Below, piece by piece: positions 1,919 to 53,992 of a DNA stretch of 64,000 nt. Made by a program: the position numbers and the translations under genes. The notes below the pieces were generated by a model. That model made no database searches. It had not been told where the DNA came from and worked only from the letters and a program-made list of their open reading frames with translations. This DNA comes from Altererythrobacter sp. TH136 (GTDB lineage Bacteria > Pseudomonadota > Alphaproteobacteria > Sphingomonadales > Sphingomonadaceae): assembly GCF_007065885.1 (NCBI RefSeq), contig NZ_CP041409.1, forward strand, positions 2,217,501 through 2,281,500, given 5' to 3'. Every line of letters starts with the position of its first letter. Position 1 is the stretch's first letter.

Positions 1919-2141
1919 GCAAGTCTCTCCAAACACCGAGCATATGCGCTGTTACGACGGAAGAGCATCCGTAAAATCTAGGAAGAAGGGGGTGCAATTC
2001 GTGTCGAGCCAACATCCGTCGGCTTGCCTCGTTCAAACACGCAATGTTCGCCATTGTGCGCAGGAAGCCGCACTTGAAGTGGGCATCGGAATGGGCACGA
2101 TCAGGCTTCGTCGGAGAAAACGCTGCTTTTCCAATGAAGAG

Positions 2142-11857: not shown

Positions 11858-14107
<2,250 letters not shown>

Positions 14108-14194: not shown

Positions 14195-15775
14195 CTAGGC
14201 CGCCTGGGCGAGCGGCTCGTTCCGGATCAGGTAATCGAACGCTGACAGCGCGGCCTTGGAGCCTTCGCCCATCGCCACCACGATCTGCTTGTACGGCACG
14301 GTGGTCGCGTCGCCAGCGGCGAAAATCCCAGGGAGGGAGGTGCGGCCTTCCTCGTCGGTGACGATCTCCCCGTGCTGCGAAAGCTTCAGGCCGCTGTCCT
14401 TCAGCCACTCGGTGTTGGGGACCAGACCGATCTGCACGAACACGCCTTCGAGCGCGATCTGCTGTTCTTCGCCGGTGGAACGGTTCTTCCACTTCAGACC
14501 CGACACCCGGGTGCCATCGCCCAGCACCTCGGTGGTCTGCGCGCTGGTCAGGATATCGACGTTGCCCATGCTCTGCAGCTTGGCCTGCAAGACCGCGTCG
14601 GCGCGCAGCTGGCTGTCGAATTCGATCAGCGTGACGTGCCCGACGATCTTGGCGAGGTCGATCGCCGCCTCCACGCCCGAATTGCCGCCACCGATCACCG
14701 CGATCCGCTTGCCCTTGAACAGCGGGCCATCGCAGTGCGGGCAATAGGCGACACCCTTGTTGCGGTACTCCGCCTCGCCCGGGACGCCGAGATTGCGCCA
14801 GCGGGCGCCGGTGGCCAGGATCAGGCTGCGCGCCTGCAGCCGGCCGCCGCCTGCGAAGTGCACGGTGTGCAAGCCGCCGCTGTCCGCCGCCGGCTCAAGC
14901 CGCTCGGCCTCCGACAGGTTGATCAGCTCCACCGCATTCGCATCGACCTGCGCCTTGAGCTCACCGGCGAGCCTGGGCCCTTCGGTGTAAGCCGTGCCGG
15001 GCAGGTTCTCGATCCCGAGCGTGTCATTGAGCTGGCCGCCGAACCGCTCCGCGGCGATGCCGGTGGAGAAGCCCTTGCGCGCCGTATAGATCGCGGATGC
15101 GACCCCGGCGGGGCCGCCGCCGATCACGAGCACCTCGAACGGGGGCCTGGCGGACAGCTTTTCCGCCGCCGCAGCGGCCGCGCCGGTATCGAGCCGGGCA
15201 ACGATCTCGGCCAGTTCCAGCTTGCCGTTCCAGAACGGCTCGCCGTTCAGGAAGGTCGCCGGGACGGCGAGCACGCCCCGCTCCTCGACCTCGGCCTGAT
15301 ACGCGCCGCCTTCGATCAGCGTGGCGGTCACGCGCGGGTTCTCGAACGCCATCAGCGTCAGCGCCTGCACCACGTCGGGGCAGTTGTGGCACGACAGCGA
15401 GAAATACATCTCGAAGGCGAAATCGCCCTCCAGGTTGCGCACCTGTTCCAGCAGCTCTGGCGCGACCTTGGGCGGATGCCCGCCTGCCCACAGCAGCGCG
15501 AGCACCAGCGAGGTGAATTCGTGCCCCATCGGCAGCCCGGCAAAGCGGACCCACTTCGCCGGATCGCTCGCCCGGCGAATAAGGAAGCTGGGCCGGCGCG
15601 CGTCGTCACCGTCGAAACTGGCGCTGACATCGTCGTGCAGCGCGGCGATCTCGGTCAGCAGTTCGCGGGTCTGGGCGGACTTGGGCCCGTCATCCAGCGA
15701 GGCGACGAGCTCGATCGGCTCGCGCAGGTTGGCGAGGTAAGTCTTGAGCTGGGTCTGCATCGCGGTGTCGAGCAT
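14195..15775 (-). CDS. ahpF: Alkyl hydroperoxide reductase subunit F
   Basis: A 526-residue flavoprotein that passes electrons from NAD(P)H to AhpC. The N-terminal tandem thioredoxin-fold region has a redox CHNC (about residue 130). The thioredoxin-reductase-like part has FAD motif [19 protein letters not shown], the second redox centre CPHCDG (about 345), the NAD-binding [16 protein letters not shown], and the C-terminal [15 protein letters not shown]-like flavin segment (written here as [14 protein letters not shown]). Lies downstream of ahpC with a hairpin between the two genes. Confidence 0.96.
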
Positions 15776-49594: not shown

Positions 49595-50206
49595 TCAGCG
49601 CGTCGGCTCGCTCACGCCGTTGCCGGCGGCGACCTCGTCGAGTTCCTCGAGGATGGCGCGGTGCGCGTTGACGTCGGCGATCGCACGCTGGGGAATGTCT
49701 CCCTCGTCCAGCATCGCGGTCAGCGCGGCCCGGGCGCGACCCACGCGGCTCTTGATCGTGCCGACGGCGCAGCCGCAGATTTGCGCCGCTTCCTCGTAGG
49801 AAAAGCCGCCCGCGCCGACCAGCAGCAGCGCCTCGCGCCGTTCAGGCGGCAGGGTAAGCAGCGCCCGGCGCATGTCCGACAGGTGGATCGGCTCCTCCTG
49901 CCCGGCCGGGGCCGTCAGGATCCGTTCGGCCACCGTTTCATCATAGTCGCCCCTGAACCGGTTCCGGCGCATGTCGGTCAGGTACGCGTTGCGCAGGATC
50001 ACGAATGTCCAGGCGCGCATGGAGGTGCCGGGTTCGAAGCGTTCCTGCGCGGCCCAGGCCTTGAGCAGGGTTTCCTGCACCAGGTCATCTGCCATGTCAG
50101 GACGGCCGCACAAGCCGCGAGCGAACGCCCGCAGGTGCGGCACGACGCCGGTCAGTTCGCGCTTGAAGTCGGCCTTTTGCGAGACCGTCCGCTGCTCGTC
50201 GGACAT
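49595..50206 (-). CDS. ecfG: RNA polymerase sigma factor EcfG (general stress response)
   Basis: A 203-residue ECF sigma factor of the alphaproteobacterial EcfG group. Sigma region 2 contains ARGLCGRPDMADDLVQETLLKAW and RAWTFVILRNAYLTDMRR; region 4 contains LPPERREALLLVGAGGFSYEEAAQICGCAVGTIKSRVGRAR. It directs RNA polymerase to GGAAC-N16/17-CGTT promoters and is held by NepR, encoded just upstream with a one-base stop-start overlap. A matching box precedes the nepR-ecfG unit, which suggests autoregulation. Confidence 0.95.
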   Translation of the reverse strand: MSDEQRTVSQKADFKRELTGVVPHLRAFARGLCGRPDMADDLVQETLLKAWAAQERFEPGTSMRAWTFVILRNAYLTDMRRNRFRGDYDETVAERILTAPAGQEEPIHLSDMRRALLTLPPERREALLLVGAGGFSYEEAAQICGCAVGTIKSRVGRARAALTAMLDEGDIPQRAIADVNAHRAILEELDEVAAGNGVSEPTR

Positions 50207-50424
50207 CAGTTCTTGCGGTCCAGCTGGGCCAGCAGTTCGCTGAACTGGTCGGGCAAGGGTTCATCGACAACCGAATCATACAGTTGGCGGAGGCCCGAGG
50301 CCCAACCCGGCTTGTCGGTCTTGCCTGGTGTTTGCTGCTTCACGGTCTTGCCATCCTTGCTCGCGGGGTTGCCGCTCGCCCGGCGCGCGTCGCTTTTCGC
50401 TTTATTGTCCAATTCCAGCCCCAT
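50206..50424 (-). CDS. nepR: Anti-sigma factor NepR
   Basis: A 72-residue acidic-basic protein. A disordered N-terminus rich in Lys, Gly and Thr precedes the NepR core LRQLYDSVVDEPLPDQFSEL, which forms the two helices that bind EcfG or, on stress, phosphorylated PhyR. The ATG at 50424 (MGLELDNK) gives the usual length. Co-transcribed with ecfG. Confidence 0.92.
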   Translation of the reverse strand: MGLELDNKAKSDARRASGNPASKDGKTVKQQTPGKTDKPGWASGLRQLYDSVVDEPLPDQFSELLAQLDRKN

Positions 50425-52344: not shown

Positions 52345-53142
52345 TCAGCCGAACGGGCGGCTCGATCCGAAGAACAACGCCTGGCTGATGGCCGCGCGTA
52401 CCGTCGATTCCTGGAACGGCTTGGTCACCAGGTACGTCGGTTCCGGCCGGTCGCCGGTCAGCAGCCGCTCAGGATATGCCGTGATGAAAATCACCGGGAC
52501 GCTGTCGATCGCCAGGATGTCGTCCACCGCGTCCAGGCCGGAGGATCCATCCGCCAGCTGGATATCGGCGAGCACGAGGCCCGGAGTGCGCTCTGCCACG
52601 ACTTCCTGCGCTTGGGTGCGGGTCGCCGCGGTGCCGCAGATCTCGTGTCCGAGTGACCGGACGAGGTCTTCGAGCTGCATCGAGATCAGCGGCTCGTCCT
52701 CGATGATCAGGACGCTGGTCGAGGACTCGCGATCGATTTCCTGGACCGCTTCCTTGACCATCGATTCCACGTCGGCGGCGCTCATGTCCATCACTTCGGC
52801 CGCTTCGGGAATCGAGAAATCCTCCAGCGTCGTCAGCAGCAGTGCCTGGCGATTGAGCGGCGTGATCGTGCGCAAGCGGTCCTGCGCCGCATGCTCATGG
52901 TTTGAGCTCGCGGCTTCATCGTCGCTGCCTACTTCCAGGTAAGCGCTGGACCAGACCTTGTTGAACGCCTTGTAGAGCGGCACGCGGCCACCCGAGAGCG
53001 AATTTTTCAGCGCGTCGTCGGCCAGCGCAGCCTCAAGCGTGGCGCGCACGAATGCGTCGCCGGTATGTTGTGAACCAGTTAGAGCCCGCGCGTAACGGCG
53101 CAGATACGGCAGATTGGCGGCGACTTGATCCCCGAGCGACAT
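52345..53142 (-). CDS. phyR: General stress response regulator PhyR (sigma-like output, receiver)
   Basis: A 265-residue response regulator with the PhyR layout. The N-terminal sigma-like domain (about 1-125) mimics an ECF sigma factor (LPYLRRYARALTGSQHTGD, LRTITPLNRQALLLTTLEDFSIPEAAEVM). The C-terminal receiver (about 140-258) has IIEDEPL, phospho-acceptor Asp in LVLADIQLAD, TAYPE and VTKPFQ. When phosphorylated it binds NepR and frees EcfG. An EcfG-type promoter lies 32 bases upstream of its start, which has the ribosome binding site GGGAAGGGA. Confidence 0.97.
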   Translation of the reverse strand: MSLGDQVAANLPYLRRYARALTGSQHTGDAFVRATLEAALADDALKNSLSGGRVPLYKAFNKVWSSAYLEVGSDDEAASSNHEHAAQDRLRTITPLNRQALLLTTLEDFSIPEAAEVMDMSAADVESMVKEAVQEIDRESSTSVLIIEDEPLISMQLEDLVRSLGHEICGTAATRTQAQEVVAERTPGLVLADIQLADGSSGLDAVDDILAIDSVPVIFITAYPERLLTGDRPEPTYLVTKPFQESTVRAAISQALFFGSSRPFG

Positions 53143-53173
53143 GCATTCCCTTCCCGTAAAAGTCTCGCGCGTA

Positions 53174-53198
53174 AACGGAACGGCGCTGCTATTGTTCC
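53174..53198 (-). promoter_or_regulatory. EcfG-type promoter of phyR
   Basis: The minus strand reads GGAAC (53198-53194), 16 bases, CGTT (53177-53174). A transcript would start near 53167, about 25 bases before the phyR ATG. Confidence 0.75.
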
Positions 53199-53368: not shown

Positions 53369-53393
53369 GGAACGCCCAAACGGGTGGATCATT
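53369..53393 (+). promoter_or_regulatory. Possible degenerate EcfG-type promoter of the small RNA
   Basis: GGAAC (53369-53373), 16 bases, CATT (53390-53393). One base differs from the CGTT consensus. It points at the small RNA candidate immediately downstream. Confidence 0.35.
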
Positions 53394-53396
53394 TTA

Positions 53397-53492
53397 TCCT
53401 TGTCACCGCCGAGACCCCCCCTCCCGTCCAAGCGGCTGGTGATACGATCCCGAAGGGCCTTCGCTCTCCAAGAGAGCGAAGGCCTTTTTTTT
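53397..53492 (+). ncRNA. Candidate trans-acting small RNA with C-rich loop
   Basis: About 95 bases without a coding frame of note. A 5' stem-loop pairs TCACCGCC (53403-53410) with GGCTGGTGA (53434-53442, one bulged T), closing a 23-base loop that exposes a C-rich run CCCCCCCTCCC (53415-53425). Such a C-rich loop can pair with Shine-Dalgarno sequences. The 3' end is a 13-pair perfect terminator stem with a three-base loop and eight T (53456-53492). There is no protein gene on this strand for the terminator to serve. Transcription start is assumed from a weak box upstream. Confidence 0.65.
53456..53492 (+). terminator. Strong rho-independent terminator of the candidate small RNA
   Basis: GGCCTTCGCTCTC and GAGAGCGAAGGCC form 13 perfect pairs around loop CAA, followed by TTTTTTTT (53485-53492). 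The reverse direction lacks a T tract, so it acts on the plus strand. Confidence 0.93.
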
Positions 53493-53560: not shown

Positions 53561-53992
53561 CTAAGCGAGCGCTTGCTTGAGCCGGCCCAGCAGGCCGGGG
53601 CGAGGCGGTTGGCGGAGCGCCGCGATCAGGTCGTTGTGATCGTACGGCTTGGCAAGCACCGGGCCCAGTTCTGCGATCTCGGGCGGGATGTCCTGCGGTG
53701 CGCCGGTCGAAAAGACGATCCGTGGCGGCTTGGGACCGACCGAGTTGACCAGTTCGGCCAACGCCCAGCCATCGTCCCGGTCAGCGAGATGGACATCGAG
53801 CACCATCCCATCGGGCCGCGTATCGCGCAGAACCGCCAGCGCCTCCGCTGTCGTGCTGCACATCTTGACCTCGGTAGCGCCGCCATCGAGCAGGGCCTGT
53901 TCGATCGCCATCGCGATCAATGGATCGTCTTCCACCAGCAGGACAACGCCCAGCGGGAGGTTCTTGCTCGTTCGTGCCGGACGTCTGGCCAC
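53561..53992 (-). CDS. Single-domain response regulator, FATGUY-like
   Basis: A 143-residue receiver without output domain. The acidic pocket is LLVEDDPL, the phospho-acceptor Asp is in GMVLDVHLAD, and the switch region reads IVFSTGAP followed by LAKPYD. The FSTG stretch and Tyr after KP recall the FATGUY group (F-A-T-G-x-Y), to which the SdrG regulator of Sphingomonas stress signalling belongs. It has a short basic N-terminal tail. Lies near phyR with its own EcfG-type box upstream. Assignment to SdrG is inference. Confidence 0.8.
   Translation of the reverse strand: MARRPARTSKNLPLGVVLLVEDDPLIAMAIEQALLDGGATEVKMCSTTAEALAVLRDTRPDGMVLDVHLADRDDGWALAELVNSVGPKPPRIVFSTGAPQDIPPEIAELGPVLAKPYDHNDLIAALRQPPRPGLLGRLKQALA

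Follow-up and report, generated by a model that had tools for sequence, protein, structure and literature searches.

What occupies the plus strand between phyR and the neighbouring single-domain response regulator gene in Altererythrobacter sp. TH136? The original prediction, made from the letters of a 64,000-nucleotide stretch of contig NZ_CP041409.1 (the whole of which we call the window), placed a stress-induced small RNA (sRNA) with a C-rich loop at this point in the general stress response locus. Below we ask whether this element is a gene of its own, how widely it is kept, whether it belongs with an sRNA already described and what its RNA might bind. The features are as follows, with coordinates in the window.

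49595..50206, minus strand: ECF sigma factor, read as ecfG because it adjoins nepR
50206..50400, minus strand: nepR (Pfam PF18557; start codon not settled)
52345..53142, minus strand: phyR, anti-anti-sigma response regulator (NCBIfam PhyR family, Pfam PhyR_sigma2)
53148..53157, minus strand: phyR ribosome-binding region ACGGGAAGGG; candidate target, able to pair with the sRNA loop apart from one mismatch
53174..53198, minus strand: phyR promoter, EcfG-type consensus GGAAC-N16-CGTT (from sequence; N16-CGTT in 79 of 90 loci)
53369..53393, plus strand: EcfG-type sRNA promoter, GGAAC (53369-53373), N16, CATT (53390-53393) (from sequence; conserved box)
53401..53492, plus strand: small RNA gene, about 92 nt predicted (strand from promoter and T-run)
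53401..53444, plus strand: 5' stem-loop of 11 pairs, a single U being bulged out of the 3' arm (predicted fold)
53415..53425, plus strand: C-rich apical loop CCCCCCCTCCC (C7-T-C3), followed by conserved GTCC; proposed seed region
53456..53492, plus strand: intrinsic terminator, 13 perfect pairs, loop CAA, T8 (sequence and fold)
53561..53992, minus strand: single-domain response regulator (receiver; Pfam PF00072)

A CHASE-HWE histidine kinase is also part of the stress locus. Elsewhere in the window there is a katG-type catalase-peroxidase gene (11858-14074, minus strand), and just upstream of it an AhpF-like gene (14195-15775; named from its translation).

Both genes that flank the element lie on the minus strand, as had been predicted. 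The proposed check was worded as an alignment of the region downstream of phyR, and this wording must be corrected: phyR is a minus-strand gene with its own box at 53198-53174, which puts the element upstream of phyR, the two promoters diverging. The predicted GGAAC-N16-CATT box was read just 5' of the start, and the predicted 13-pair terminator with its eight T could be read directly on the plus strand (arms 53456-53468 and 53472-53484; T8 at 53485-53492). The orientation of the promoter and the T-run together assign the sRNA to the plus strand. We placed its 5' end at 53401 from the position of the -10 element and from the point where conservation begins. The 5' stem pairs TGTCACCGCCG (53401-53411) with CGGC-T-GGTGATA (53433-53444); the stem-loop and its C-rich loop stand as described, but we count 21 bases in the loop rather than 23. 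The predicted fold of the RNA has a free energy of -45.5 kcal/mol, against -24.3 +/- 2.95 kcal/mol for shuffled sequences (n = 200; z = -7.2).

The element was present in 11 of 11 genomes of the genus. The genus alignment shows near-identity in the RNA body and at the -35 and -10, against divergence in the spacer and in the two flanks; conservation in all 11 genomes inside diverged flanks puts the element far beyond chance. A search of the family gave a match in 85 of 199 sampled genomes, 84 of which were read as real; the match in G177 was rejected since only the terminator matched and none of the locus genes was present. The family matches and the genus set (92), minus G177, make up the 91 loci used here. 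Within them the loop core CCCTCCCGTCC is exact in 91/91, although part of this conservation arises by construction, since the loci were found via RNA similarity. It is preceded by a C-run of 5 to 8, a variation in length that argues against a reading frame. phyR lies beside the sRNA on the opposite strand in all 91 loci, at a distance of up to ~2.4 kb. About 40 of the 96 sampled genera retain the promoter box together with the C-rich loop and the two stems.

The promoter box was not selected for by the search, because the aligned part starts after GGAAC in 78 of the 84 family matches. GGAAC was nevertheless found at 91/91 loci, followed by N16-CATT in 80, N16-CGTT in three, N17-CATT in one and other letters in seven; CATT or CGTT at a spacing of N16-17 thus occurs at 84/91. 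A set of named records (at least 119 stretches, overlapping the sampled genomes in part) was found by the loop, and for this reason tests the promoter only: GGAAC-N16 was seen in 118/119, with CATT in 98 and CGTT in 10. At the phyR promoter, the 90 loci gave N16-CGTT in 79, N17-CGTT in two and N16-AGTT in one, with no box found in eight. Across some 90 genomes, then, the divergent promoters keep different -10 elements, CATT at the sRNA and CGTT at phyR. The original prediction had noted that CATT is one base off the EcfG consensus. According to the accessible part of a study of Sphingopyxis granuli (PMC7083833), the CATT promoter of mltA2 was transcribed in vitro with EcfG factors; output fell when CGTT was replaced by CATT and rose when CATT was replaced by CGTT. 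CATT therefore appears to be a working, if weaker, EcfG -10 in that system, and the assignment of the off-consensus box to EcfG is strengthened. By the same in vitro standard, the sRNA promoter would be weaker than that of phyR.

To look at the structure across carriers, we aligned 85 sequences, for which RNAalifold predicted both stems. With both stems taken together, 95.8% of 1979 cells were paired, and double-sided changes were seen in 10 of 24 pairs, where shuffled alignments had a mean of 7.2 (2/500 reached 10). The covariation score was 0.217, compared with 0.134 for shuffled alignments and at most 0.082 for slid versions. Covariation was to be looked for in both stems. It is strong in the terminator, which supplies most of it (8 of 10 counted pairs changed on both sides); stem 1 shows little variation and gives a weak signal. 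Stem 1 was paired in 98.1% of 933 cells over the 85 sequences; its double changes amount to two pairs (reached by 21/500 shuffles) or three cells (4/500), and its pair types were no more numerous than in shuffled alignments (192/500). Column pair 5/50 of this stem is GU in 39 sequences, AU in 28 and GC in 18, and is never broken in the 85.

Do these hairpins need a gene of their own? They are strong and intergenic, and transcription of the receiver gene (53561-53992) runs in their direction, so that they might be read as a terminator or 3' UTR element of the neighbouring minus-strand genes. Several features make this very improbable: the T-run is on the plus strand only; the -35 that is kept at every one of the 91 loci is EcfG-type and in plus orientation; the loop core stays exact at all of these loci while the terminator stem varies; and the receiver gene was not found beside the sRNA at several loci (for example L020, L033 and L052). 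We put at about 0.85 the probability that the element is a stand-alone, EcfG-dependent gene for a trans-acting sRNA of the general stress response. Counted against this reading are the weak covariation of stem 1, the off-consensus CATT, the seven of 91 loci with other -10 letters and a search for perfect-complement targets (below) whose matches mainly reflect a Shine-Dalgarno bias.

From these data we infer a pathway of transcription, EcfG dependence and pairing. PhyR would bind NepR and sigma-EcfG would be freed; sigma-EcfG would read the sRNA from the conserved off-consensus promoter GGAAC-N16-CATT; and the intrinsic terminator would end the transcript at ~92 nt. The invariant loop CCCCCC(C)UCCCGUCC may then base-pair with target mRNAs at G-rich leaders or ribosome-binding sites and so affect how well they are translated or how stable they are, in the manner of the C-rich stretch in Caulobacter GsrN. 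Comparison alone suggests a possible further step, in which the phyR mRNA is itself a target; this would give negative feedback.

The distribution of the sRNA was followed with a covariance model (R1) run on 296 genomes of the order at an E-value of 0.01. There were matches in 102, of which 90 scored at least 66.8 bits (these were counted by score, and the locus was inspected in some). Two further matches, G340 (36.9 bits) and G310 (32.7 bits), lie beside phyR and have a diverged loop, giving 92 carriers in 296 genomes. The remaining 10, at 32.1 bits or less, were not counted; in the three that were checked (G300, G308 and G373), phyR is on another contig. Of the comparison proposed across the Sphingomonadales, the outcome is thus that promoter, loop and both stems are conserved within one branch and not throughout the order. 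In a class-wide search with R1 (E 0.1), 21 of 385 genomes matched; four matches were strong, all in the window's own family. The other 17 were at or below 32 bits, and outside the family there were no more matches than expected by chance in the 385 genomes under strict large-search filters. The best of the weak class matches, G705 (E 2.9e-4), was rejected: its assembly is fragmented and the phyR-like matches are on other contigs. Among the matches listed, named carriers are mostly Erythrobacteraceae and Novosphingobium; record titles include Novosphingobium, Erythrobacter, Qipengyuania, Porphyrobacter, Croceicoccus, Altererythrobacter, Tsuneonella and related genera, together with one Blastomonas record and metagenome-assembled genomes, some labelled only Alphaproteobacteria or Proteobacteria. 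The predicted family is well conserved and, judged from its promoters, EcfG-linked in the Erythrobacteraceae and part of Novosphingobium.

Among the family loci that gave no sRNA match, there are 16 in which a GGAAC-N16 box, upstream of phyR and divergent from it, precedes a protein frame; inspection of these 16 revealed no sRNA-like element. Seven of the seven complete frames behind the box are NepR by Pfam, and that of L272 is long and kinase-like. Since the divergent box leads into nepR there (7/7 frames), the spot upstream of phyR appears, where tested, to be used differently in family genomes that lack the sRNA. In L347 and L348 (~2030-2110, minus strand) we observed diverged members of the sRNA family, in which the C-run of the loop is now UUCUU and CUCCCGUCC is kept.

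Is this an sRNA already known under another name? With Rfam 15 at gathering thresholds, no model matched the sRNA, and the whole window gave only two tRNAs. A relaxed search of 458 bases returned five matches up to E 5, all under their cut-offs. Two of these are alphaproteobacterial sRNAs that share the two-hairpin layout and the C-rich first loop, RF01521 (CC1840; 22.5 bits, gathering 50) and RF02344 (ar14; 18.5 bits, gathering 58.8), and both were rejected on score. Run on the 385 class genomes at E 0.001, RF01521 was found in none, the window's own genome included, and the control Caulobacter vibrioides was detected. One sphingomonad sRNA, SuhB of Sphingopyxis granuli, is reportedly known. 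Among the papers listed, titles and the starts of abstracts in the open-access literature on Erythrobacter and sphingomonad sRNAs, Novosphingobium aromaticivorans sRNAs and C-rich loops held no description of this RNA. The accessible part of PMC6599016, on the EcfG regulon of S. melonis, contains no occurrence of sRNA, small RNA or non-coding, and PMC12559287 makes no mention of GsrN or SigT. As far as these literature and Rfam searches reach, the family is undescribed.

The closest counterpart in design is GsrN of Caulobacter crescentus (ccna_R0081), which the accessible text of PMC5869019 describes as an sRNA of ~100 nt that depends on SigT and binds the leader of katG through a C-rich 5' loop, the site being the first 7 nt of the mRNA. 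Processing into a stable 5' half and stabilisation by Hfq are further marks of GsrN. The same text reports relatives in the Rhizobiaceae and others, predicted by locus, expression or promoter. Those of Rhizobium etli, Sinorhizobium meliloti and Brucella abortus, and the other predicted GsrN-like RNAs (PMC5869019), are known to us by the description in that text, and share with the present sRNA the EcfG box, nearness to the stress locus and a C-rich 5' loop. Erythrobacter litoralis, an out-group in that study, is given there as having no apparent gsrN-like gene (PMC5869019); several other named Erythrobacter records carry the sRNA described here, among the matches listed.

GsrN and the present sRNA have in common an EcfG/SigT-type promoter, a length of ~100 nt, a 5' stem-loop that exposes a C-rich stretch, an intrinsic terminator and a place near ecfG, nepR and phyR, which is the usual one in species related to GsrN's. 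This similar plan, with a single-stranded C-run in the 5' stem-loop, is what favours the idea that the sRNA is the gsrN ortholog, diverged beyond sequence recognition and doing the same core job. We regard this as possible but doubtful. Run with default filters and with E-values allowed up to 10, R1 gave no match in the 72,369 bases taken from around phyR in five other alphaproteobacterial genomes (L342-L346), two of which hold putative gsrN-like loci that R1 did not see. The architecture differs as well. Here C7-U-C3-GUCC is in the apical loop, whereas in the gsrN-like loci a C7-GAC occupies an internal loop, with a second hairpin above it; and those loci lie downstream of phyR on the same strand, unlike the present sRNA, which is divergent from phyR in every locus examined. 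The -10 is CATT here as a rule, and there is no obvious katG site: the leader of katG, as taken from the sequence, had no strong match to the loop (-9.6 kcal/mol, with 70/500 shuffled loops as good). On paper the sRNA would work like GsrN, and no homology was detected by our searches.

The two gsrN-like genes (L342 at 6396, minus strand; L343 at 7390, plus strand) lie just downstream of a Caulobacter-like phyR and both contain GACGCCCCCCCGAC; one has CGTT and the other CATT at the -10, and both fold as a 5' stem-loop and a terminator. PhyR of these genomes is 80% and 76% identical to chain 3n0r, which we take to be Caulobacter PhyR. At L346 (5034, plus strand; genome G747), ~1.3 kb from phyR, an EcfG box precedes a terminator and, ahead of it, a stem-loop whose loop holds CCCCC; this is possibly another GsrN-like RNA.

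What might a stand-alone sRNA at this locus pair with? The phyR leader is the nearest candidate. It was compared in the 90 of 91 carriers with a resolved phyR start, with L289 and L291 set apart as a diverged class. A GGAAGGG motif was seen at the phyR ribosome-binding site in 65/90 carriers (GGGAAGGG in 51 and GGAAGGG in a further 14), in 0/21 sphingomonads without a detected sRNA and in 0/25 other alphaproteobacteria. The median energy of the loop-phyR duplex was -15.1 kcal/mol in carriers, versus -8.5 and -9.1 kcal/mol in the same two comparison groups, with the pairing of the phyR sites to the anti-Shine-Dalgarno sequence near-equal in the three (-7.0, -7.0 and -6.4 kcal/mol). No more than a tenth of shuffled loops were as good in 58/90, 3/21 and 5/25, respectively. 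In the window's own genome the phyR leader paired with the loop at -17.4 kcal/mol, a value equalled by 6/500 shuffled loops. Leaders of two further genes at these loci, the receiver and an acetyltransferase, had the motif in 5/46 and 2/52, against 62/91 for phyR.

These comparisons would fit local negative feedback as the main job of the sRNA, its loop occluding the phyR ribosome-binding site and damping the response once EcfG is active. We consider this rather unlikely. The motif is absent at phyR in 25/90 carriers, in 48/103 leaders of the named records (phyR start resolved in 103 of 119 stretches; motif present in 55/103, the set overlapping the carriers) and in 9/16 further carriers with a canonical loop (present in 7/16), and it is these modest rates, 55/103 and 7/16, that hold our estimate down. 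Moreover, the carriers form one branch, so that the contrast in the motif is close to a single evolutionary event. A rough scan of the window, with the best start taken for each of 53 frames, placed phyR 11th, and an acetyltransferase leader of the same genome pairs better (-19.6 kcal/mol, 15/500 shuffled loops as good). Caulobacter GsrN is also described as having no feedback on stress-response transcription, in the accessible text of PMC5869019. The four genomes with a changed loop (L347, L348, L358 and L359) lack the phyR motif too, which says little given how modest the motif rates are elsewhere. The fuller scenario, in which a new sRNA family was fixed beside phyR in the Erythrobacteraceae and part of Novosphingobium under the weaker CATT promoter and its loop binds GGGAAGGG at phyR, cutting PhyR synthesis after the onset of the response, is likewise offered only tentatively.

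For targets elsewhere, we searched for perfect complements of the loop with the pattern GGGAGGGGN{2,12}ATG, using the reversed pattern as a control. The window's own genome gave 13 matches at 12 sites versus four for the control, and the 11 genus genomes gave 141 versus 65. As the motif resembles a Shine-Dalgarno sequence, this excess is no proof of targets; by eye, a few leader strings recur among the matches in the genus. Candidates in the own genome include a PilZ-like protein, a homoserine dehydrogenase and a small membrane protein (all named from translations). In the same genome, at L337 (~1501), ACGGGAGGGGGG complements the loop perfectly over 12 bases; it immediately precedes a 10-codon frame and, in antisense orientation, is close to where a hydrolase-like gene begins.

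In alphaproteobacteria, GsrN is the one sRNA arm of the general stress response that has been studied well. By analogy, such an arm acting after transcription is plausible here also, an idea that is not wholly new since GsrN, which the original prediction did not name, is a precedent (PMC5869019, accessible text). For the Erythrobacter side of the tree, the element provides a well-conserved candidate stress sRNA whose promoter, structure and locus are delimited at base level. The contrast of CATT and CGTT in some 90 genomes suggests that promoter strength within the locus is under selection. If the pairing of loop and phyR leader is true, the general stress response would be subject to negative feedback at the post-transcriptional level.
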